A stretch of 64,000 nt of DNA from Halorussus salilacus (lineage in GTDB: Archaea > Halobacteriota > Halobacteria > Halobacteriales > Haladaptataceae): assembly GCF_024138125.1 (NCBI RefSeq), contig NZ_CP099993.1:124001-188000 (forward strand). Reading direction: 5' to 3'. This document shows positions 37,891 to 59,200 of the stretch, one piece after another. The notes under the pieces are model-generated. The model saw only the letters and a program-made list of their open reading frames with translations, searched no databases and was not told where the DNA came from. A program made the position numbers and the translations under genes. Each line of letters begins with the position of its first letter. The stretch's first letter is position 1.

Positions 37891-38121
37891 GCGTATCTTC
37901 GTTGAACCACTGCAACTACGAAAAAGGTGGTAGTGTCTCCGGGCTGAGAGAGTCAGTGTTCGTCACGGCACAGAATAATCTAACACTCCTAAGGAAAATT
38001 TCAAGTCAGGGCGTTGCTAGGACTCGCGTATGCGAAAGGGCGTATGCGCGGGTGTTAGAGCCACCCGTTTCGGACGTACTGACGGGTATAACCGTGAATC
38101 TTGTGCTATTGGAGGAGGACG

Positions 38122-38532
38122 ATGATAGACCTCACCGACCTCCAGGAGGACATCCTGACGCTCGCGGTCAAGAATCCCGAAATGACCAACGAGGAGATCG
38201 CCGACGTGCTCGACTGTTCGCCGAACTGGGTGGGTGAAGTCCGACGGAAGTACGAACACGCCGTTGATGAAAGCCAAGTCGACGATTCGCTGAATACCGT
38301 TCGGGGGAACGCACAGACCGTAAAAAGCAGTTCTGGCGGTGGCGGCCTTCTCGGCTTTTTCATCATCATGCCGCTGGAGTTGAGTCTTGCATTCACGGTA
38401 TGGGCATTGGAAAACAGTCTGAGGCTGTCTGTGTGGTTGCTGGAGAAAACGTTGGCACTCTCGATTTGGCTTCTGGAACTCCCGTTCCGGATTCTCGGTG
38501 GACTGGCCGGATCCAGTAAAAACGAACGATAA
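38122..38532 (+). CDS. HTH protein with an 11-residue amphipathic repeat tail
   Basis: A 136-residue protein. Residues 3-45 form an HTH (LQEDILTLAVKNPEMTNEE, IADVLDCSPNWVGEVRRKY). After a polar linker and GGGGLLGFF, three consecutive 11-residue units follow: TVWALENSLRL, SVWLLEKTLAL, SIWLLELPFRI. These would lie on or in the membrane. The ATG at 38122 follows a strong Shine-Dalgarno GGAGGAGG. It is 2 bases from the next gene, so they form an operon, perhaps a membrane-tethered regulator with its partner. Confidence 0.65.
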   Translation: MIDLTDLQEDILTLAVKNPEMTNEEIADVLDCSPNWVGEVRRKYEHAVDESQVDDSLNTVRGNAQTVKSSSGGGGLLGFFIIMPLELSLAFTVWALENSLRLSVWLLEKTLALSIWLLELPFRILGGLAGSSKNER

Positions 38533-38534
38533 CA

Positions 38535-39227
38535 ATGCCTGAGTTATGGATATACGGAGACAAGCATACCAGAAATCACGACGTAGTTACAGAGGAAATC
38601 AAAAATTATCTGCCCGAAGATGTAGAGATCATATTCTACGAAGGAGGTTTGAAAACGGAACCCTCCGTGGGTAGGTGGGTTCATTTACTCAATCCGATGT
38701 ACGTTCTGCTAAAGTTCTTAATCGTTCCAATGATGCTTCTGCAGCAATGGCGACGCGGATCGACAGGTGAGGCGGCAGGAGTTGTTGGAGCTAACAACGT
38801 TGCATCTATTTTTGATACGCCTGTTCGAGCTACCGATCTCCATCACCGGGATAAAATCCTAAAACAAGGCCCCATATCATTCATTTCAATTTGGTCCCTG
38901 CTCCTCTTTTCGGTATTAATTGCTCTGAACGAGACCATATCTGGTGCATTATTCCTTCTTGTCATAGGTAGTCTTACACATCGTCTGTATTTCTCAGCAT
39001 TCATTGATCCGGTCCGTGAACGGAAGATGGTTGATGACATCACAGAAGAAATAATAGAAAATAAGACTAGCAAGGTCGCCTTGGTTACTGGAAGTGCACA
39101 TGTTCGGTGGATAGAGAAATTAGCCAAGAACCGAGGTTTCGAAGTTCATACTGAGCGACGTGACGACTCTCGGTTGCGAATATTTCTCCGGTCACTCGCG
39201 TCTGTACCATACGGGCGATATCACTAG
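38535..39227 (+). CDS. TraB/GumN-like membrane protein
   Basis: A 230-residue AT-rich gene product. N-terminal LWIYGDKHTRNHDVVTEEI followed by VEIIFYEGG, and C-terminal VALVTGSAHVRWIEKLAKNRG, resemble the two His-containing blocks of TraB/GumN (Tiki-like) proteins. Two or three hydrophobic segments (near residues 55-75, 120-150) lie between them. Members of that superfamily include metalloproteases and pheromone-shutdown proteins; this is a distant match by eye. It follows the HTH gene by 2 bases. Confidence 0.5.
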   Translation: MPELWIYGDKHTRNHDVVTEEIKNYLPEDVEIIFYEGGLKTEPSVGRWVHLLNPMYVLLKFLIVPMMLLQQWRRGSTGEAAGVVGANNVASIFDTPVRATDLHHRDKILKQGPISFISIWSLLLFSVLIALNETISGALFLLVIGSLTHRLYFSAFIDPVRERKMVDDITEEIIENKTSKVALVTGSAHVRWIEKLAKNRGFEVHTERRDDSRLRIFLRSLASVPYGRYH

Positions 39228-39284
39228 TTTCCGTGGATAATCTTTCAAAAAGTCGAAATAGGCTCTATACAGGCCTAATGAAGG

Positions 39285-39965
39285 CTATCGAAACCGTCGA
39301 GGTGAATTCATTGTCTTTTGCTTCTTGATACGGGGGCGATTCTGTCTCTCACCATCTCTCTCAGATACGCTCCGATACGTTCTCACATATTCTGCTTCGT
39401 GAACTCTTTTGGCAGATTCCGGCGGAATGTAGTTTGGGAGATAGCCAATAACTCTATCTCGAAAGATAATGACTGAGAGAATAAGCCAGAATCCGCCGGA
39501 TATAATTGTTCCATCACCTTTCATGAAAAGGAGAGTCAACCAGATCCATGCAACTATTACATAGACTTTGAATAGACCTGCTGGGATGAATCTTAGGAAT
39601 ACACCCCATCGCATATCGTCAGAGTATATCGCGCTCGAAATTAACTCTACTACAGATGTCGTATCTGGTAATTTATTTGGCTTAACACCGGTTGCGAAGA
39701 ATGTCAAATGCTTTCGGATAATTGATGTTCTTCGAGAAGATTCCATACCTGCCTCATTTCCGAAGATAAGCAAAGAGGTATGATGTAACCATAATGTGGC
39801 ATAGAGTGAGAGAATCAAAAGCGAACAGGCTACAATAGAGTCAATGGACCCCAAGAACGGCAATTCCAGAAAGGTCTCTGAAGCGAGAATATAGAGATAC
39901 GTTCCAGGAATTATATACATTAAGCCATAACTCCGCTCTCCTAATCCCTGAATTGGATTTAACAT
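39285..39965 (-). CDS. AT-rich multi-pass membrane protein, unknown
   Basis: About 226 residues from the ATG at 39965 (MLNPIQGLGERSYGL). A TATA-like TTATATAC on the minus strand lies about 25 bases upstream, so this start fits leaderless transcription better than a TTG at 40016. Four or five helices: YIIPGTYLYILASETFL, IVACSLLILSLYATLWL, LFKVYVIVAWIWLTLLF and GGFWLILSVIIF. Cytoplasmic C-terminus basic. No family recognised; converges with the TraB-like gene. Confidence 0.55.
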   Translation of the reverse strand: MLNPIQGLGERSYGLMYIIPGTYLYILASETFLELPFLGSIDSIVACSLLILSLYATLWLHHTSLLIFGNEAGMESSRRTSIIRKHLTFFATGVKPNKLPDTTSVVELISSAIYSDDMRWGVFLRFIPAGLFKVYVIVAWIWLTLLFMKGDGTIISGGFWLILSVIIFRDRVIGYLPNYIPPESAKRVHEAEYVRTYRSVSERDGERQNRPRIKKQKTMNSPRRFR

Positions 39966-40092
39966 ACCTGTTTCATATATTTGGATGGTATATAATCCCC
40001 CTCCTGTTCTGACCAATTGTTAAGTGCTATTTTACTCAACTCCATCTCTCACGCGACTATACGGGGTTGCACGCGAACAGAAACAAATCCTG

Positions 40093-40131
40093 CTCGTTGC
40101 ACAAGTCGAGCGAGATTGGTTGTGCAATGAG
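40093..40131. promoter_or_regulatory. 12-bp inverted repeat, operator-like
   Basis: CTCGTTGCACAA (40093-40104) and TTGTGCAATGAG (40120-40131) match at 11 of 12 positions, 15 bases apart. They lie between the divergent membrane-protein gene and the gene at 40259, upstream of a TATA element TTTATATA (40192-40199). Confidence 0.45.
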
Positions 40132-40258
40132 CGCCTCTCCGCGCTACCATTCCCCCCAACCTCTGGCATGATTGTGTCGCTCTCGAACCCTATTTATATA
40201 CTATCCACGTTTGAGTGACCGCAGAATACTAGGTTCATGGGGAGGTTGTGCAACGAGT

Positions 40259-40534
40259 ATGCGAATCGAAGCCACCGCAACGCGGAAACGGAAGTGGGAG
40301 AACCTAAAGGAAGCCACCGGAAAAGGCCACAAGTCGACTGCTCTCGACACCGCGGCCGAATACTACTTGAAGATGGCTGGGGATACCACGGCCGTGCCTG
40401 TCGGTGCGATAGAGGAACTGATGGAACTCGCAGTTGAGGAGGGCTCGGTTACGCCTGAAGAGATTGCAGATGTCTTAGACACCGAGCAACTACATGTTCA
40501 GGCAAGGACTAGTTGGTCCGTCGGTAACAAATAA
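40259..40534 (+). CDS. Small island protein with KRKWENLKEATGKGHKS motif
   Basis: A 91-residue protein. RKRKWENLKEATGKGHKSTALDTAAEYYLKM matches small haloarchaeal proteins (recalled as DUF7386) common in plasmids, proviruses and islands, probably ribbon- or HTH-like DNA binders. A GGGGAGGTT Shine-Dalgarno-like run lies 14 bases upstream of the ATG, after a TATA element at 40192. Higher GC than its neighbours. It is followed by a 175-base AT-rich gap. Confidence 0.6.
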   Translation: MRIEATATRKRKWENLKEATGKGHKSTALDTAAEYYLKMAGDTTAVPVGAIEELMELAVEEGSVTPEEIADVLDTEQLHVQARTSWSVGNK

Positions 40535-40709
40535 AATATTTTCATCCACATAACAAAATTGTGATGGTATTTAAGGCGTTATCTTGTGTGCCAGAGTCCT
40601 CAATCCACGACTATAAATAACAATTAACAAGCACAATAATATTCTGGGTTTTGTTCGAGATAAAATCCATATCTAAAGAGTAATATACCACCTAGTGTAA
40701 TCGATTAAT

Positions 40710-42437
40710 ATGGAGTCAAGTCTCCAATCATTTGAGATTGAAAATTATAAGTCCATAAAAACCTCTGGGAAGGTCAAACTACCCGGGATAACTTTAGTTC
40801 TCGGACCTAATAGCTCAGGCAAGACAAATATAATTGAATCACTTCTGCTGTTAAAGCAAACCTTTGAAAATAACGAACTAGACTTAGTCCTCAATGGGAA
40901 TAATATCAAAACGGGGGAATTTAAAAATATAGTTTTTGAGAAGGATGTTAACCGGAGTCTCGTTTATCGGTTCTTCTTCGATAGAGGATTAGAAGATCAA
41001 GACCCTGCACTAATCTGCCCAGTATGTCACAAGGAATACACCTATGAGGGGTACTTTACCAACCATATGGAAGATGTGCATGGTGATTTTTGGGAAGAAA
41101 ATCAGGGAGATATTGCAAAATACAGCAACTTCTTTAGTCGCGATAAATTTGTTGAATTCAAATATCGGTTCGATAAGGAGGAGAAGCGAAGTAGATTTTA
41201 TTCTATCAAGTTTGGCAATCCAACGCCAGAAGACGGACTTTATATCTCTTCTATCGAATTTATTGATAAAGGAAAGAAAGTCGGAATGAAGGTTAAAGAC
41301 ACGAATGGAGAACTTATTATAGATATATCCGTTTCTCTAGAATTGCCAACAAGAGCGGGTGATTCTGAAGAAGACAGCAGTCGTAACACATTGTTTGATT
41401 CAAACCCTAACTTTCTCCCTCGACAGATGCATGCTATTATTTACTCACTTATCCCACAGGTAGACGATAGACCACCTTGGTTCAGAAGTCCTGAAAAAGT
41501 AGGACAGAACGAACAGTTCCTTAATATACACAAACACAAGAATAAAGTGCAAGATTTCATGAATCATGCTGACGAAACAGAGGGATTAGAGGACAGTATA
41601 GAAGTAAAAGAGATTTCAACAGGGTTGTTAGCGCGATTAGCAGGCACAATACAAAAATCAGCACCAAGGATAAATGATATACAGAATTTCTTAGATAATA
41701 TAAAACATGTTGGCCCACTTCGTAATTCACCACGTCGAATTTATTTCGGGGCAGGCGGTAGCCCTGGTCTTCAAGCGGAGGGACACAATCAAGTAGAAGA
41801 TAAGATTTTCTCGGCTGAACGTTCCGGAAATAGAGGATTGATCGAGAAAACGAACCAGTGGCTATCTGAGACGGGATTTGATTGCCAACTAGATGTCTCC
41901 AAAGTTGGTGTCGGCGATCTCTATCAGCTCGAGGTAAAACAATCTGGATTATCGGTGAACTTAGCTGATACTGGCTTTGGACTCTCACAAACTCTACCTA
42001 TAATAATTGAATGTATAACTATGCAAATGGAGGACGATTCCCCGCAAAGAGGCCCATATCGGTTTGCTCCATTCCGTTCATCCAACAACCAAAAACCATT
42101 AGCTCTGATTGAGCAACCAGAAATCCATCTTAATCCGCGTATTGAAGCCTCATTAGCAGACTTCTTCATAGATGTGATGGAGTCGGGGACGAATCTCATT
42201 ATAGAGACCCATTCAGAATACCTTCTCAATAGATTACAGAGAAGAGTCGTTGATGGGAAAATTGAGAATAAAGACCAATTAGTGATATACTTCATATCTA
42301 AAGAAGGTATCGAGAGCAAAGTTAAAGAAATAAAGGTTTCTTCTTCAGGAAGCCTTAGTGATTGGCCTGAAGGATTCTTCCAAGATGATTTCGAAGATGC
42401 AGTGGAAATCCTCAAGGAGTCGATGAAGGATGAGTGA
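40710..42437 (+). CDS. OLD/AAA15-like ATPase (DUF3696 type) with inserted C2H2 zinc finger
   Basis: A 575-residue ABC-type ATPase. Walker A LGPNSSGKTNIIES at residues 31-44; signature-like NLADTGFGLSQTLPII near 415; Walker B PLALIEQPEIHLNP near 470; ETHSEYLLNRLQRR near 505. Residues 103-124 hold a zinc finger, C103-x2-C106-x12-H119-x4-H124, inserted after the first strands. Such ATPases partner with nucleases or TOPRIM proteins in several phage-defence systems. It overlaps the PIN-like gene by 8 bases. Codon use is strikingly AT-rich compared with the chromosome, which indicates transfer. Confidence 0.85.
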   Translation: MESSLQSFEIENYKSIKTSGKVKLPGITLVLGPNSSGKTNIIESLLLLKQTFENNELDLVLNGNNIKTGEFKNIVFEKDVNRSLVYRFFFDRGLEDQDPALICPVCHKEYTYEGYFTNHMEDVHGDFWEENQGDIAKYSNFFSRDKFVEFKYRFDKEEKRSRFYSIKFGNPTPEDGLYISSIEFIDKGKKVGMKVKDTNGELIIDISVSLELPTRAGDSEEDSSRNTLFDSNPNFLPRQMHAIIYSLIPQVDDRPPWFRSPEKVGQNEQFLNIHKHKNKVQDFMNHADETEGLEDSIEVKEISTGLLARLAGTIQKSAPRINDIQNFLDNIKHVGPLRNSPRRIYFGAGGSPGLQAEGHNQVEDKIFSAERSGNRGLIEKTNQWLSETGFDCQLDVSKVGVGDLYQLEVKQSGLSVNLADTGFGLSQTLPIIIECITMQMEDDSPQRGPYRFAPFRSSNNQKPLALIEQPEIHLNPRIEASLADFFIDVMESGTNLIIETHSEYLLNRLQRRVVDGKIENKDQLVIYFISKEGIESKVKEIKVSSSGSLSDWPEGFFQDDFEDAVEILKESMKDE

Positions 42438-42906
42438 ATCATTCGTCATAGATGCCAATGTCATAGCCTTTGCAGCTGGCGCTCATGGTGAAGACGAACA
42501 AAATGCTGCATGTCTAAATATTGTCTCCAAGATAATGTTAGAAGAAGACCTCTGTTTTGCTTTAGATACAGAGGGTAAGATTCTTGGAGAATATAAGAGC
42601 AATTTAAGCAACTATAAGAACCCTCACACAAAGTTGATACAGGAATATATTGAGAAGCAATTGAAACAGAAAGATGGAATAACATTTCATATTCCAGAAC
42701 ATGAGTCGGAAGTGGAGGAATTAAAAGCCAAAGGCTTCCACGATGATGATCTAATATTTGTTCGGGTCGCTCCTAAGACCAGTTCTCAAACAATTACAAG
42801 TTGTGATAGTAATTCCTTCTTAGATGATGAATACAAGGACTGGATTGAATCAGAATTGGGGGTCTCAGTTTTTCCTCCAGAAGAATTTAATCCAAGTTCT
42901 AATTGA
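42430..42906 (+). CDS. PIN-like nuclease, partner of the ATPase
   Basis: A 158-residue protein. Acidic residues fit a PIN active site: D8 (FVIDANVI), E54 (ILGEYKSNL), D105-D107 (FHDDDLIFVRVA) and D126 (SCDSNSFLDD). PIN domains usually cut single-stranded RNA. It starts inside the ATPase gene, so the pair is translationally coupled; the ATPase is a natural sensor or regulator and the PIN protein the effector. No small classical VapB antitoxin precedes it. AT-rich like its partner. Confidence 0.75.
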   Translation: MSESFVIDANVIAFAAGAHGEDEQNAACLNIVSKIMLEEDLCFALDTEGKILGEYKSNLSNYKNPHTKLIQEYIEKQLKQKDGITFHIPEHESEVEELKAKGFHDDDLIFVRVAPKTSSQTITSCDSNSFLDDEYKDWIESELGVSVFPPEEFNPSSN

Positions 42907-43090
42907 TAGATTTATCTTTCCTCGGTGAATGGATTGTTGCGGTTTCACTATTCTCTTTACCCGTCCAAAGAATTTCATCGCCACCTTCGATACCGAGTTC
43001 CTCGACGACATCCTTCGGAATCGTGACCTGAATCACGCCGTTGCCTTCCTGTGCCGTCCGTGTATCCGCGAATTTCTGTCTGATTCCCAT
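42899..43090 (-). CDS. AbrB/SpoVT-like DNA-binding protein
   Basis: A 63-residue swapped-hairpin AbrB protein: GNGVIQVTIPKDVVEELGIEGGDEILWTG is the family core. It may act as antitoxin-like repressor or chromosomal regulator. It converges on the PIN gene with an 8-base overlap at their ends. Intermediate GC. Confidence 0.8.
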   Translation of the reverse strand: MGIRQKFADTRTAQEGNGVIQVTIPKDVVEELGIEGGDEILWTGKENSETATIHSPRKDKSIN

Positions 43091-43373
43091 GATTACTCTG
43101 CACTTCCTGCGAACCGTCTGTGTAATAAATGTGCAGGGTCCCCTGAGCGGCTATGTAGCGACACCCCGGCAACCATACATAATTTGTCAATTTATCGGTG
43201 GGGAAGTTAGACCACGGAGTACCGACCGGTCGCTCCGGTCGTGATACTTCCATGACTCGGTAAACAGGGCACGAACGCCCAAACACCTCCTTTTTGAAGG
43301 ACACGGAACGACGGTGAAGAACTACAGCGAGCAACGAAGACGCATCACTCGTCCTCGTTACGCCGCGAAAGAG

Positions 43374-43554
43374 TGGGGTCGGAGGGATTTGAACCCCCGA
43401 TCGACTGATATCTCCGGTCTCGTGCGCCTCGGAACTCCAGAGGGTCGTCAACGCGAACCGATGATCAGTCGGCCGCTCGGTATATCAGCTGGAGTCTCGT
43501 CCCGGGCGCGTGGCCTCTGGAGTCAGTCGCCATCCCTGGCTTGGCCACGACCCC
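43374..43554 (-). tRNA. tRNA-Trp (CCA) with intron
   Basis: Acceptor arms GGGGTCG (5', ending at 43554) and CGACCCC with discriminator A at 43374. The D arm TGGCCAAGCCAGGGATGGCGA, the anticodon region GACTCCAGA (CCA) and the T arm GGGGGTTCAAATCCC are clear. About 105 extra bases follow the anticodon, the known position of the haloarchaeal tRNA-Trp intron, which in Haloferax encodes a box C/D guide RNA for its own pre-tRNA. CTGA and GATGA-like boxes are visible in the intron here. Confidence 0.92.
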
Positions 43555-46991: not shown

Positions 46992-47111
46992 CTACGCCGA
47001 GGCCGTCTCGCAGGCCGGGCGACAGTAGCCCTGCTCGGCCGCGTTCGAACCGTCCACTGTTTTGAACTCGGTGCCGCAGTTCTCAGAGGTGTCGGTCTCG
47101 AACTGTAGCAT
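46992..47111 (-). CDS. 39-aa cysteine-containing small protein
   Basis: MLQFETDTSENCGTEFKTV...EQGYCRPACETASA: three Cys spaced as a possible small zinc site. Its start at 47111 lies 67 bases from the IS6-type element. Composition fits small haloarchaeal zinc proteins; no family recognised. Confidence 0.5.
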   Translation of the reverse strand: MLQFETDTSENCGTEFKTVDGSNAAEQGYCRPACETASA

Positions 47112-47177
47112 GGTCGAATCGACCTACTTCGACGGTGTCAGTTTTCGCGCTTGTTCGCTACGGACGCGTTCCGAGAC

Positions 47178-47874
47178 GGCATTGTTCAGATTAGCTGATT
47201 CCATGCGAAGGCGAAGGTTTGCAACCAATTTTCGGCGGAGCGGTGGGTCGCGTGGCGGAAATGATTGGCGAATTGTTTGGTTCGGCGTTTTAGTTCTTTG
47301 AAAACACGTTCGACGCTGTTCCGATTTCCGTGGCGAACATACTGAAATCGGAGGTTTTTCTCGAAGAGTGCGGCCTGTAACCACGGTGCGCCATCGACGA
47401 GAAACACCGCGTCACCGACGCGGTGTTTCTCTTGCAATTCGGTGAGAAACTGCTTCGTCACAACGATAGTTCGTGTCGGATAGAGCTTGACGTGGAGGAA
47501 TTCGTTAGTTTCGGGATCGACGGCGGCGTACAGCCAGTAGCGTTGATTGTTGAGTTGAATCACCGTTTCATCGACCGCAACGTGATTCGGGCTTTTGCCG
47601 TCAGTCGGCTGTAGATCGGCTTTCTGCACCCAATTGTGGATAGTGGAGCGACACCGTTTGACACCGAACTTCTCTAAGATAGAAACAGTATCCGAGAGTG
47701 ATAATCCGGCCGCATGCAGGTGGATACTGAGCTTCATCAGCGGCTCCGGTGTCGCTTCTCGCTCCACAAACTCTAACTCGATCCAGTCGCTACATTCGTT
47801 GAGGCGGCTGAATTCTGGCATAGACCACTACGAATTCGACCGCCTCATCCTTCAACGCTTATCTGAACAGTGCC
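47178..47874 (-). mobile_element. IS6-family insertion sequence, about 697 bp
   Basis: Ends are near-perfect inverted repeats: GGCATTGTTCAGATTAG at 47178-47194 and the complement of 47858-47874, GGCACTGTTCAGATAAG. TTCCGAGAC directly precedes the left end (47169-47177) and follows the right end (47875-47883), a target duplication showing recent, intact insertion. Confidence 0.9.
47186..47821 (-). CDS. IS6-family transposase
   Basis: A 211-residue DDE transposase, full length for haloarchaeal IS6 (ISH15-like) elements. N-terminal HTH (GLSLSDTVSILEKFGVKRCRSTIHNWV); DDE residues in HVAVDETVIQL, VFLVDGAPWLQ and SVERVFKELKRR. It appears intact and fills almost the whole element. Confidence 0.9.
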   Translation of the reverse strand: MPEFSRLNECSDWIELEFVEREATPEPLMKLSIHLHAAGLSLSDTVSILEKFGVKRCRSTIHNWVQKADLQPTDGKSPNHVAVDETVIQLNNQRYWLYAAVDPETNEFLHVKLYPTRTIVVTKQFLTELQEKHRVGDAVFLVDGAPWLQAALFEKNLRFQYVRHGNRNSVERVFKELKRRTKQFANHFRHATHRSAENWLQTFAFAWNQLI

Positions 47875-47924
47875 TTCCGAGACGACCCGAGGTTTCATGA
47901 GCCCGAGTTCCGCACTCCGAACCG

Positions 47925-48164
47925 ATGGCCGAACTGGTCGAACTCGAACGCGCCGTGATCGAAGCGCTCTCGCGGGAGGTCGGTATCAAGTCGGTCGGAG
48001 CCCTCCGGAACGAGCTCCGACAGGAGGGGTACGCGACCGAGATGGACTACGACGAGGTCCACGACCTCCTGGAGTACATGCGCGAGCGGGGCTACGTCGA
48101 GTTGGCTCACGGCGAGTGGGGCGAGTACACGCTCCCGGCGTCTCCGTCCTCGCACGGACAGTAA
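47925..48164 (+). CDS. Small winged-helix-like protein
   Basis: A 79-residue protein: LERAVIEALSREVGIKSVGALRNELRQEGY then DYDEVHDLLEYMRERGYVELAHGEWGEYTLP, the helix-helix-helix-wing order of a winged HTH. Probably a small regulator. It starts 41 bases past the IS target duplication, so the IS may have separated it from its promoter. A kinase gene follows after 32 bases. Confidence 0.65.
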   Translation: MAELVELERAVIEALSREVGIKSVGALRNELRQEGYATEMDYDEVHDLLEYMRERGYVELAHGEWGEYTLPASPSSHGQ

Positions 48165-55971: not shown

Positions 55972-56433
55972 CTACGGGTCCGGACGCGGCATCTCCTGCA
56001 ACTCTCGAATCTCCCCGGTCTTCTGGACGCGCTCGTACTGCCGTCGCCACGCCTCCTCGGGGAACAGTCCGTTCCTGTCGAACAGGTCTCGGGCAACCTT
56101 CGTGAGTCGGTAGAACTTGTAGGGGAACTCGCGCATCCGGTTTCCGGCCTCGATTTCGAGTTCCTCGACGACGCCGACATCGCGCAGTATCTTGAGATGG
56201 TTTCTGATGGCGTCCTTCTTCAGACTCGGGTTCATGTAATCGAGTTCGTCGACGCTCGGAGCGCCCTTCGGATGCCCGACGATGTCGGCGATGATGTTCG
56301 CGCGAGTGTCGTCGGTGGCCCTCTGGAGCGCTTCCCAGGTGTTGAACTCGGACTTCGACGATTCCTCGCCTCCCCCGGGTTGCCTCGCTTTCGGGTGCAT
56401 GTGCGACACTACAGTTTCATCACCCATAAACAC
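55972..56433 (-). CDS. Winged-helix (ArsR-like) regulator
   Basis: A 153-residue protein; ATG at 56433 or the second at 56427. The core WEALQRATDDTRANIIADIVGHPKGAPSVDELDYMNPSLKKDAIRNHLKIL is an HTH of the ArsR/MarR kind, followed by a wing (VGVVEELEIEAGNRMREFPYKFYRLT). It is divergent from the gene at 56538 and probably regulates it from the shared AT-rich spacer. Confidence 0.75.
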   Translation of the reverse strand: MFMGDETVVSHMHPKARQPGGGEESSKSEFNTWEALQRATDDTRANIIADIVGHPKGAPSVDELDYMNPSLKKDAIRNHLKILRDVGVVEELEIEAGNRMREFPYKFYRLTKVARDLFDRNGLFPEEAWRRQYERVQKTGEIRELQEMPRPDP

Positions 56434-56537
56434 TTGGTCACTCAGTTCGAGTGGTTTCCAACTAATTGTCTGACTAATTGTCGAGGTAGTTTCGAAGTAA
56501 TCGGTAGATTAATCGGTTCGTCGTTCCCACATCCGGT
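56434..56537. promoter_or_regulatory. Divergent promoter with repeated AT-rich half-sites
   Basis: Contains ACTAATTGTCTGACTAATTGTC, two direct copies of ACTAATTGTC ten bases or so apart, and TAATCGGTAGATTAATCGG, two copies of TAATCGG. These are likely operators for the adjacent HTH regulator. Confidence 0.45.
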
Positions 56538-57149
56538 ATGCCGAGTAGCGACGACGAACCCGGCCGAGACGACGGAGAGTACATCGGAGGTGTCGGTTCG
56601 GAGGAGTTGCTCGACGCCGACGACACCCTTTCGCCGACGCCGACTCAGCACGAGCGGTTGAAGAACCACCTCCACGGAGAGCAATTTCGGGAGATCAAGC
56701 GGGCCGACCGCCGATACCTCGTCGTCGGACGCGGCGGCGACGACGCTCCCGGAAAGAGACGCCGACGAGTTCGCGACATCCTCGACGACCGCCCGGAAGC
56801 GACCGCCTTCCGGCTCGAAGACTTCGGACTCTCCGGCGACGAGCTGGAACTGTGGGTCCCGGCGTTCGACATCCTCTCGGAGACGGCGACCCATATCGTC
56901 GGTATTCTGGAGGATTACGACGGCGGGCACGTCTGGGAACTCGGCTATCTCTATCACCATCAGCGCCACATCCGCGACGTCCTCTGGTTGCTGAAGCGTA
57001 TTTACGGGACCGAAGCCACGCAACGCGAGAAGTACGACAACGGCATGGCGGCCTCACACCTCGCGGCGCTCGAAGAGGCAACCGGCGACCGCGTTATTCC
57101 GTGGGGGGACCCCGACGACCTCTCGGACGCAGTGGAGAAGATTCCGTAA
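56538..57149 (+). CDS. Nucleoside-deoxyribosyltransferase/TIR-like protein
   Basis: A 203-residue protein. After a disordered acidic N-terminus, a Rossmann-like core runs RYLVVGRGGDDAPGKRRRRVRDIL, FDILSETATHIVGILEDYDGGHVWELGYLYHH. The DGG-x-V-WELGYL stretch echoes the DGTAFELG active-site motif of nucleoside 2-deoxyribosyltransferases and the glutamate region of TIR-like NAD hydrolases. This is a by-eye fold guess. It lies in the bracketed cassette, divergent from an HTH gene. Confidence 0.55.
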   Translation: MPSSDDEPGRDDGEYIGGVGSEELLDADDTLSPTPTQHERLKNHLHGEQFREIKRADRRYLVVGRGGDDAPGKRRRRVRDILDDRPEATAFRLEDFGLSGDELELWVPAFDILSETATHIVGILEDYDGGHVWELGYLYHHQRHIRDVLWLLKRIYGTEATQREKYDNGMAASHLAALEEATGDRVIPWGDPDDLSDAVEKIP

Positions 57150-57156
57150 CGACCCG

Positions 57157-57279
57157 CTAGACCGAGCGCCGGTATACTCTCTCGGCCAGAATTTCGAGGC
57201 CCATGCTCGCCACGCCCGAGACGAACACGGCGACTTCGGGCTTGGTCACGTCCGTCGCGTATTCGCGGAGGTCACCCAT
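57157..57279 (-). pseudogene. Truncated duplicate of the spermidine-synthase-like gene 5' end
   Basis: The first 31 codons are those of the gene at 54148-55851 (MGDLREYATDVT ... GLEILA); it then diverges and stops after 40 codons (ERVYRRSV). It lies within and beyond the right 133-bp repeat and keeps the promoter, so a short useless transcript may be made. Confidence 0.85.
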
Positions 57280-57323
57280 TCGCCGTGAGATACACGCACG
57301 GGATGCTTAAAGGGTCGGTGCGG
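57191..57323 (-). repeat. 133-bp direct repeat, right copy
   Basis: Second copy of 55763-55895. Together they bracket the HTH and deoxyribosyltransferase-like genes, the pattern left by a single-crossover integration of a circle or by an unequal duplication followed by insertion. Confidence 0.95.
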
Positions 57324-57365
57324 TCGCTGGGCGGGTCGAAAAATGGGGAGGAATCGCGGTGGTGG

Positions 57366-57836
57366 TTAGATGTCGACTTCGGACTCGCCGATGACGGCGG
57401 TCTGGTCGCTACCAGAGGCCGACCAGATGACTCGGACCTCGTCACCGTCAGAGAATTTCCCATCCACGTAAATGGAATCTCCAGCGGTGATGTCGCCACT
57501 CCAACTACTGCTATTCTCACCACTATCATCTACTAATTCTCCGTCAGCGTAGACGTCTGCCCCACCAACAGAGACATTCACTTGGTTGGCCTCCACCGAA
57601 TCACCGCCATCGTGGGTGACTTCAACAACTATGTCGTTACCTGCGCTGTAATCGAACCCGAAGTTCGCGTTCGGACTCGATTGCCCGACCCGGTCACCGA
57701 GACCGAGGACGAACGTTCCGATGACGGCCGCGAGGATGACCGTAATCGCGACCATCAGGATGACGCCGATGACGGGACTGACCGCTCGCTCCTCGTCACC
57801 GCCGACGAACGACTTGAGTGCCTCTGACAGATTCAT
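57366..57836 (-). CDS. Type IV pilin (archaeal Pilin_N), copy 1
   Basis: A 156-residue prepilin. The class III signal is EERAVSPVIGVILMVAITVILA, with the prepilin peptidase cut just before the AVSPVIG stretch, followed by one hydrophobic helix and a beta-rich head ending WSASGSDQTAVIGESEVDI. Adhesion or archaellum-independent motility is likely. Its hydrophobic segment is identical to that of the next pilin. Confidence 0.9.
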   Translation of the reverse strand: MNLSEALKSFVGGDEERAVSPVIGVILMVAITVILAAVIGTFVLGLGDRVGQSSPNANFGFDYSAGNDIVVEVTHDGGDSVEANQVNVSVGGADVYADGELVDDSGENSSSWSGDITAGDSIYVDGKFSDGDEVRVIWSASGSDQTAVIGESEVDI

Positions 57837-57839
57837 GGT

Positions 57840-58340
57840 TTAGAGACTCACCTCGGACTCGCCAATGACGGCTGTCTTGTCGCTACCGGGAGCGTTCCAG
57901 ATGACCTTCACCGAGTCGCCATCGGTCATGTCAGCTCCATTTTCCTGTATGTCCAAGCTATCACCAGCAGTTATCTTCTCCTTATCCCAACCGTTCGTCC
58001 CACCAGCATTCACGAAGTCATTATCACCGCCGGTTTTGTATTCCGTATATTCACTAGTCCCATTCCAAGCGAGAGTCCCGCCGATTTGAACACTTATCTG
58101 ATCCGTATTTACTCCTTCACCGCCATCGTGGGTGATATTCACGTAATCTGATCCACCCTCAGCGGTTCCGTATCCAAACCCAAACTGCGAGTTCGGACTC
58201 GCCTCGCTCACTTGGTCACCGAGTCCCAACACGAACGTTCCGATCACGGCCGCGAGAATCACCGTAATCGCGACCATTAGTATCACGCCGATGACAGGGC
58301 TGACCGCCCCGTCGTCTTCGAACAGTGTCTTGAGTTTCAT
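57840..58340 (-). CDS. Type IV pilin (archaeal Pilin_N), copy 2
   Basis: A 166-residue prepilin with the signal FEDDGAVSPVIGVILMVAIT. The hydrophobic helix and the final GSDKTAVIGESEVSL match copy 1, while the middle of the head domain differs. Only 3 bases separate the two genes, so they form an operon. A TATA-like CCTTAAAGGG lies near 58393-58402. Confidence 0.9.
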   Translation of the reverse strand: MKLKTLFEDDGAVSPVIGVILMVAITVILAAVIGTFVLGLGDQVSEASPNSQFGFGYGTAEGGSDYVNITHDGGEGVNTDQISVQIGGTLAWNGTSEYTEYKTGGDNDFVNAGGTNGWDKEKITAGDSLDIQENGADMTDGDSVKVIWNAPGSDKTAVIGESEVSL

Positions 58341-58612
58341 GTTTTGTATCTCTCCGTTCTATGGCACGTTATCAGCCCTGAGAAGTGGCCGTACCCTTTA
58401 AGGCCCCGAACGGAGTACTGAAATCCGTCGGAGGGGAGCCGTCAAGCCGCCCCGTACCGGCACTTCTCGGGCCATTCCTACGTGCTTGATTTACCTGTTC
58501 ACAGCGAAGATATATAAACACTTCCTTACCTGAAAACAGAATTATAGAACTTGATATCCTCAGAAAGGTTAAACAGACACCTTGCTAATAAATCCGGCGA
58601 TTACGGGAAGGC

Positions 58613-58627
58613 CTATCTTTAAGATAG
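58613..58627. promoter_or_regulatory. Perfect palindrome CTATCTTTAAGATAG at a promoter
   Basis: Seven-base arms around one base. It contains the TATA-like TTTAAGA and sits about 22-36 bases before the ATG at 58649, so it may be both TATA box and operator. Confidence 0.5.
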
Positions 58628-58648
58628 CGCGCACGTATCTGGAAACCG

Positions 58649-59200
58649 ATGAGCCAGCAGGTCGCTCCGGAGACCCTTCGGGCCGCGCTCCAGTCGCTGG
58701 CGGCCCGGCTCGGCAAGACGCCGACCGTCGTGGACATGCACGAGGAGGGCGACTACGCTCCGGAGCTGTACCAGGAGGTGTTCGGAAGCTGGAACGAAGC
58801 GCTCGAAGCCGCCGGACTCGACCCCGACGAGATGGGGAGCAAGCGCATCCCCGACCGCGAGCTGTTGGCGGAGCTCCAGCGTCTCTACACCGAACTCGGC
58901 AAGCCGCCGACCCAGCAGGACATGACCGAGCGCGGCGAGTACTCCAACCGGACCTACCAGCTGCGGTTCGGCAGCTGGTCGTCGGCGCTTCAGGAGGCGA
59001 TGCTCGACACCAACGACCGCATCTCCGAGGCCGAACTCCTCCGGGAGATCGAGCGGCTGGCCGACGAACTGGGCCGCGCGCCAAGGGTGGCCGACATGGA
59101 CGAGCGCGGCGAGTACGCGCCGGTCACCTACCACCGCCGGTTCGGGTCGTGGCGGCGGGCGCTCGCGGAGGCCGACCTCGACGGTATCACCCCCGGCTGA
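58649..59200 (+). CDS. Protein of three homing-endonuclease-associated repeats
   Basis: A 183-residue protein made of three similar units of about 60 residues: LARLGKTPTVVDMHEEGDYAPELYQEVFGSWNEAL, TELGKPPTQQDMTERGEYSNRTYQLRFGSWSSAL and DELGRAPRVADMDERGEYAPVTYHRRFGSWRRAL. This repeat usually accompanies HNH nucleases, but no nuclease domain is present, so it is probably a DNA-binding protein only. Its stop lies in the hairpin at 59197-59225. Confidence 0.85.
   Translation: MSQQVAPETLRAALQSLAARLGKTPTVVDMHEEGDYAPELYQEVFGSWNEALEAAGLDPDEMGSKRIPDRELLAELQRLYTELGKPPTQQDMTERGEYSNRTYQLRFGSWSSALQEAMLDTNDRISEAELLREIERLADELGRAPRVADMDERGEYAPVTYHRRFGSWRRALAEADLDGITPG

Follow-up and report, generated by a model that had tools for sequence, protein, structure and literature searches.

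An unusually AT-rich pair of overlapping genes is found in the GC-rich chromosome of the haloarchaeon Halorussus salilacus, within the 64,000-nucleotide stretch analysed here, hereafter the window (contig NZ_CP099993.1, positions 124,001 to 188,000). The first gene encodes an ABC-type ATPase and the second a small PIN-fold protein. The question raised by this locus is what such a pair may do, and whether it belongs to a system that has already been described. An earlier note, made from the letters of this DNA, had read it as a two-gene module encoding a regulated RNase that could act in abortive infection, and had presented it as new, knowing of no described system that joins this type of ATPase to a PIN effector. 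The module itself holds: both open reading frames are present, ATPase first, on the + strand and with an overlap of 8 bases (42430-42437). Their composition also agrees, as the GC content of the pair is 0.391 (39%) versus 0.66 (66%) across the whole window. The statement on novelty was wrong, since PADLOC holds the pairing as HEC-03A + HEC-03B. Three features had moreover been overlooked, namely the divergence of the haloarchaeal lineage, the RNA ligase of its relatives and the tRNA-bordered island on which the pair is located.

The two reading frames are real genes and not products of chance, because full-length homologues adjoin each other in the same order, with a 1-base overlap, in another haloarchaeal genus (genome G513; 48% identity for the ATPase and 40% for the PIN protein). 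The position of a TATA-like element, spotted by eye upstream of the ATPase gene (Table 1), would suit a leaderless archaeal transcript.

Table 1. Features of the ATPase-PIN locus, in window coordinates
Feature	Position	Strand	Remarks
TATA-like TAATATA	40681..40687	+	23-29 bases upstream of ATPase ATG; by eye
ABC-type ATPase gene	40710..42437	+	575 aa; AAA_15/AAA_21 head, DUF3696 C-terminus; proposed sensor/regulator
Walker A GPNSSGKT	40803..40826	+	ATPase residues 32-39; from sequence; kept in A6
C2H2 zinc finger insert C103-x2-C106-x12-H119-x4-H124	41016..41081	+	kept in G513 homologue
ABC signature DTGFGLSQ (LADTGFGLSQ in full)	41967..41990	+	sequence motif
Walker B EQPEIHLNP	42111..42137	+	residues 468-476; Gln where catalytic Glu is usual
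DUF3696 region	42270..42404	+	Pfam 7.6e-7
PIN-fold nuclease gene	42430..42906	+	158 aa; HEC-03A-like; proposed effector
PIN D8 codon	42451..42453	+	D in 72/75 homologues
PIN E54 codon	42589..42591	+	E in 74/75 homologues
PIN D107 codon	42748..42750	+	D in 74/75 homologues
PIN D126 codon	42805..42807	+	D in 73/75 homologues
Intron-containing tRNA gene	43374..43554	-	Rfam RF00005, 44.8 bits; Trp by eye; right island border

The ATPase and the PIN protein

In Pfam, the ATPase matches AAA_15 (1.6e-20) and AAA_21 (5e-16) in addition to DUF3696 (7.6e-7). The type of ATPase proposed earlier was borne out, with Walker A, the LADTGFGLSQ signature, the EQPEIHLNP Walker B and the C103-C106-H119-H124 finger all present. 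The label "OLD-like" was loose: the TOPRIM domain that characterizes OLD and Gabija proteins is absent C-terminal to the ATPase, where Pfam places DUF3696, and the head itself is of the Rad50/PtuA/GajA kind. Solved relatives detected by profile include OLD, PtuA, AriA, Rad50 and GajA. A fold search with the predicted model retrieved Rad50, SMC, retron PtuA and GajA at low TM-scores, the model being poor (pLDDT <50) at residues 93-161 and 199-307 and leaving the zinc finger unmodelled.

The EQPE version of Walker B is found in 91 of 96 DUF3696-type ATPases, the window ATPase being counted. It is plausible that these proteins hydrolyse ATP slowly and stay in an ATP-latched complex, since in SMC and Rad50 a Glu-to-Gln change at the catalytic position of Walker B traps the ATP-bound dimer. 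The C2H2 finger, which gives only a sub-threshold match to Pfam zf-C2H2 (0.017), is conserved in the sole close homologue of the ATPase, that of G513 (CPICHKEYLRYEGHYTNHLADEH). Apart from a C/H pattern in L044 (residues 14-39), taken as chance, none of the 85 further ATPases scanned showed such a finger.

The window PIN protein has no match in Pfam, and among 42 aligned homologues PIN_3 is recognized in two and PIN in two (best PIN_3 match, 7.6e-5). Its assignment and its proposed catalytic residues D8, E54, D107 and D126 are nevertheless supported by fold and by conservation. The AlphaFold model (pLDDT 82) has VapC-type PIN toxins as its top matches and protein-only RNase P lower, in a search whose matches are weak to modest (best E 3.8e-3). 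The four residues are kept in 72-74 of 75 homologues, across which D46 is likewise near-invariant, and the window PIN therefore possesses, by residue conservation, the acidic metal-binding tetrad expected of PIN nucleases. A designed TIM barrel matched by the PIN profile with hmmsearch was set aside as chance.

A known pairing and a separate haloarchaeal lineage

The search of PADLOC profiles, which the earlier note had proposed as a check, gave HEC-03A as the sole match of the PIN protein (2.2e-6, residues 5-128 of 158), a match read from its E-value and coverage, apart from PADLOC's own thresholds. Comparison by hhalign of the window and G513 PINs with the bacterial HEC-03A profile gave 98.4% and 8.9e-15. 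The ATPase matched PDC-M55A (4.6e-59), NsnB (1.8e-56), HEC-03B (4.9e-47) and AriA (2.1e-23). The pairing of an ATPase with a PIN protein is thus already known as the PADLOC entry HEC-03A/HEC-03B. HEC-03 stands for Hma-embedded candidate 3 (Payne et al. 2024, bioRxiv 10.1101/2024.01.29.577857, as cited in PMC12988326 and PMC12111858); both papers, citing that work, state antiviral activity for some HECs, and HEC-03 appears as a detection in PMC13356809.

The window shares with HEC-03 a DUF3696-type ABC ATPase followed, on the same strand, by an overlapping PIN gene of one homologous family. It differs by the C2H2 finger of its ATPase, which is ~110 aa longer than typical members, by the lack of an adjoining RNA ligase and by its weak HEC-03A score. 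The HEC-03B profile is also outscored by PDC-M55A and NsnB, and on the ATPase tree the proteins of the window and of G513 branch together, apart from the 71-row clade of sampled HEC-03B proteins (99% SH-aLRT). The haloarchaeal form of the pair stands as a deep lineage of its own, marked by the C2H2 finger and by the absence of a neighbouring ligase.

Among other known systems, Menshen (NsnABC) resembles the window pair through its NsnB ATPase; its further members are a DUF262 gene and a component predicted to be of OLD type (PMC10952713), neither of which was found beside the window ATPase among the island ORFs scanned, and the partner is a PIN protein. PDC-M55, a PADLOC candidate, provides the best ATPase E-value through M55A, but the window partner matches HEC-03A only and no M55 partner. 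PARIS (AriA/AriB) also combines an ABC ATPase sensor with a nuclease effector; AriB, however, is a TOPRIM nuclease and not a PIN fold, and the AriA score is far lower. The PtuA-PtuB pair of Septu and retron Ec78 associates an ABC ATPase, PtuA, which is among the best solved relatives, with a small nuclease, but PtuB is an HNH enzyme.

The earlier note had also asked whether homologues of the ATPase lack the PIN neighbour in most genomes. This is not the case: a PIN gene adjoins the ATPase, downstream, in 71 of its 80 nearest relatives in the searched genome contigs, a count skewed towards close relatives. The gene order is the same in all 71, and 50 of them show a 4-base overlap. On plasmids, the PIN accompanies the ATPase in about 11 of 29 ATPase records (own count, from annotations and PIN matches). 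In haloarchaea, both genes are present in the same two of 391 genomes, the ATPase being scored as a full-length match. The distance matrices of the two proteins are correlated (r = 0.914, 69 pairs; 0 of 2000 permutations as high), which shows co-inheritance, to which shared descent contributes, and not contact. Nine relatives have no PIN match; a short downstream ORF is PIN-like by eye in L023 and L038, and in L036, which lacks a HEC-03A-type PIN match, the downstream ORF matches PIN_3 in Pfam (3.6e-5). Profile comparison of ORFs of this type with HEC-03A did not confirm homology. In an Acinetobacter soli plasmid (L003, 3605-4970), the ATPase is frame-split, the PIN is intact and an HNH gene comes next.

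No match was obtained for the ATPase in a single-sequence scan of the genome contigs, for the haloarchaeal alignment in viral contigs, for the bacterial PIN in phage records or for the Lelliottia locus in E. coli genomes. In 393 genomes of the phylum, the HEC-03A profile found only G259; it undercounts the haloarchaeal members, since the window's own PIN was missed. G259 displays the canonical form, in which the ATPase and the PIN, with an 8-base overlap, are followed by an RNA ligase.

This third gene is frequent. In 51 of 80 loci (L023-L102) the gene after the PIN encodes a PF09414 RNA ligase, 46 of these matches being strong, and the same holds for L002, L004-L006 and L009; all 52 strong ligases inspected for the KxDG motif contain it. 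Adjacent ligases are found in many bacterial relatives and in one methanogen-like archaeal relative. The PIN-plus-ligase label is clustered on the ATPase tree (7 changes versus 29.9 when shuffled), and one representative ligase had no match among the PADLOC models at 0.01. No RNA ligase is found beside the pair at the window locus or on the G513 stretch (L020); the window genome contains one PF09414 ligase gene, distant from the pair and unlinked to it. The ligase and the haloarchaeal lineage with its C2H2 finger both go beyond the PADLOC entry, and HEC-03, a barely studied candidate defence system, is extended to the haloarchaea as a distinct lineage. Archaeal defence other than CRISPR and restriction is little characterized (PMC12988326).

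A tRNA-bordered island and the neighbours of the relatives

The pair is carried by an AT-rich island at 37900-43370 (about 37.9 to 43.37 kb; GC 0.439). The 3' end of the bordering tRNA gene, which was missed by ARAGORN, faces the island, and the alignment to genomes of the same genus resumes from 43341-43371 onward, that is, at this 3' end. Three sister genomes (L123, L124; G002:C1:1387620-1387665) contain extra, partial copies of this 3' end, which suggest an integration hot spot, this being the pattern that integration would leave. A left-end copy (attL) was sought in the window and not found. Three island genes at 38101-40016 seem by eye to encode membrane proteins and have no family match above the cut-off. 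An AbrB/MazE-like gene (42899-43090, - strand) is convergent with the PIN gene and just overlaps its end. Two further GC dips are visible in the window, at 47001-48000 (0.55) and 56001-59000 (0.57-0.60).

The defence context is thin at the window locus, where no other island gene matched a PADLOC family at 0.001 or better and no other defence gene was recognized, and good among the relatives. In L047, the pair is flanked upstream by HmaB and downstream by a gene of DUF262 type, recognized by Orf5/HEC-06 profiles; the pair is located beside a type I restriction cassette in L095, SIR2 in L051, Lamassu-like and HNH genes in L084 and a DrmMI-like methylase in L090. These loci were picked by eye from 16 and indicate occurrence, not frequency. 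AbiEii occurs in the neighbourhood of the Aeromonas plasmid relatives. On the G513 stretch (L020, 6280-17000), near a tRNA-Arg, the pair is accompanied by a primase gene of viral or plasmid type, by a GIY-YIG-like gene and by a weak match to HEC-02B.

Proposed mechanism and alternatives

The defence role suggested in the earlier note gains support from the contexts of the relatives, from the conserved pairing and from HEC-03; both this role and the RNase activity are inferred from the fold, the residues and the context. The two genes probably form an antiviral module of the HEC-03 kind, itself mobile, in which an ATPase sensor would restrain a PIN RNase until infection frees it. That the ATPase would hold the PIN is proposed by analogy with PARIS, where AriA sequesters AriB until infection and the freed AriB cleaves tRNA (PMC12409363). 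The DUF3696 ABC ATPase would detect infection, having until then kept the PIN inactive within an ATP-bound complex. Once freed or switched on, the PIN RNase would use its D8/E54/D107/D126 metal site to cleave an essential RNA, tRNA or rRNA being the likeliest target, and growth would stop before the virus multiplies.

PIN enzymes generate 5'-phosphate and 3'-OH RNA ends. Ligases of the PF09414 type can seal such ends directly, with no healing step beforehand, which makes it natural to envisage a role in repair or reset for the ligase; where it adjoins the pair, it may reseal these ends and limit or reverse the damage. Its presence in the relatives predicts that the PIN target is an RNA with ligatable ends, and that the damage is possibly reversible. 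In the ligase-free haloarchaeal version, the zinc finger of the ATPase may offer a surface for sensing or for partner docking. It can be tentatively imagined that DUF3696 ATPase-PIN modules at large are defence systems whose RNA cuts can be reversed. The ATPase, with its natural Gln in Walker B, would stay latched in the ATP state and hold the PIN; on infection, the PIN would cut a host RNA, and the co-encoded ligase would reseal the 5'-phosphate/3'-OH ends. The haloarchaeal branch, sensing through its finger, would have lost the ligase or never had one.

Three other roles have to be weighed against the antiviral module. The pair might mainly stabilize its island as an addiction system, the PIN being a VapC-like toxin and the ATPase its antitoxin. 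VapC-type toxins are indeed the best fold matches of the PIN, and both the tRNA-bordered island and the primase-bearing stretch near tRNA-Arg in G513 would suit this role. It is nonetheless unlikely, as a 575-residue ABC ATPase is unusual for an antitoxin, Pfam reveals no DNA-binding antitoxin domain in the pair beyond the finger, defence genes adjoin the relatives and a ligase partner is unexpected for simple addiction.

In a restriction-type activity, the PIN would cut DNA, like the PIN-like flap nucleases, and would be loaded on viral or plasmid DNA by the Rad50-like ATPase, the head of which resembles proteins acting on DNA (Rad50/SMC, Gabija GajA). This role appears quite improbable: 51 of the 80 relatives have an RNA ligase, which points to RNA ends, and the fold neighbours of the PIN are VapC toxins and protein-only RNase P. 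If the module instead served RNA processing or repair, in housekeeping or under stress, this would account for the PIN and the RNA ligase occurring together in many relatives, and an unlinked PF09414 ligase does exist in the host genome. This last role is very unlikely for a module of such patchy distribution (two of 391 haloarchaeal genomes), with a low GC content, an island location and, among its relatives, defence genes as neighbours.
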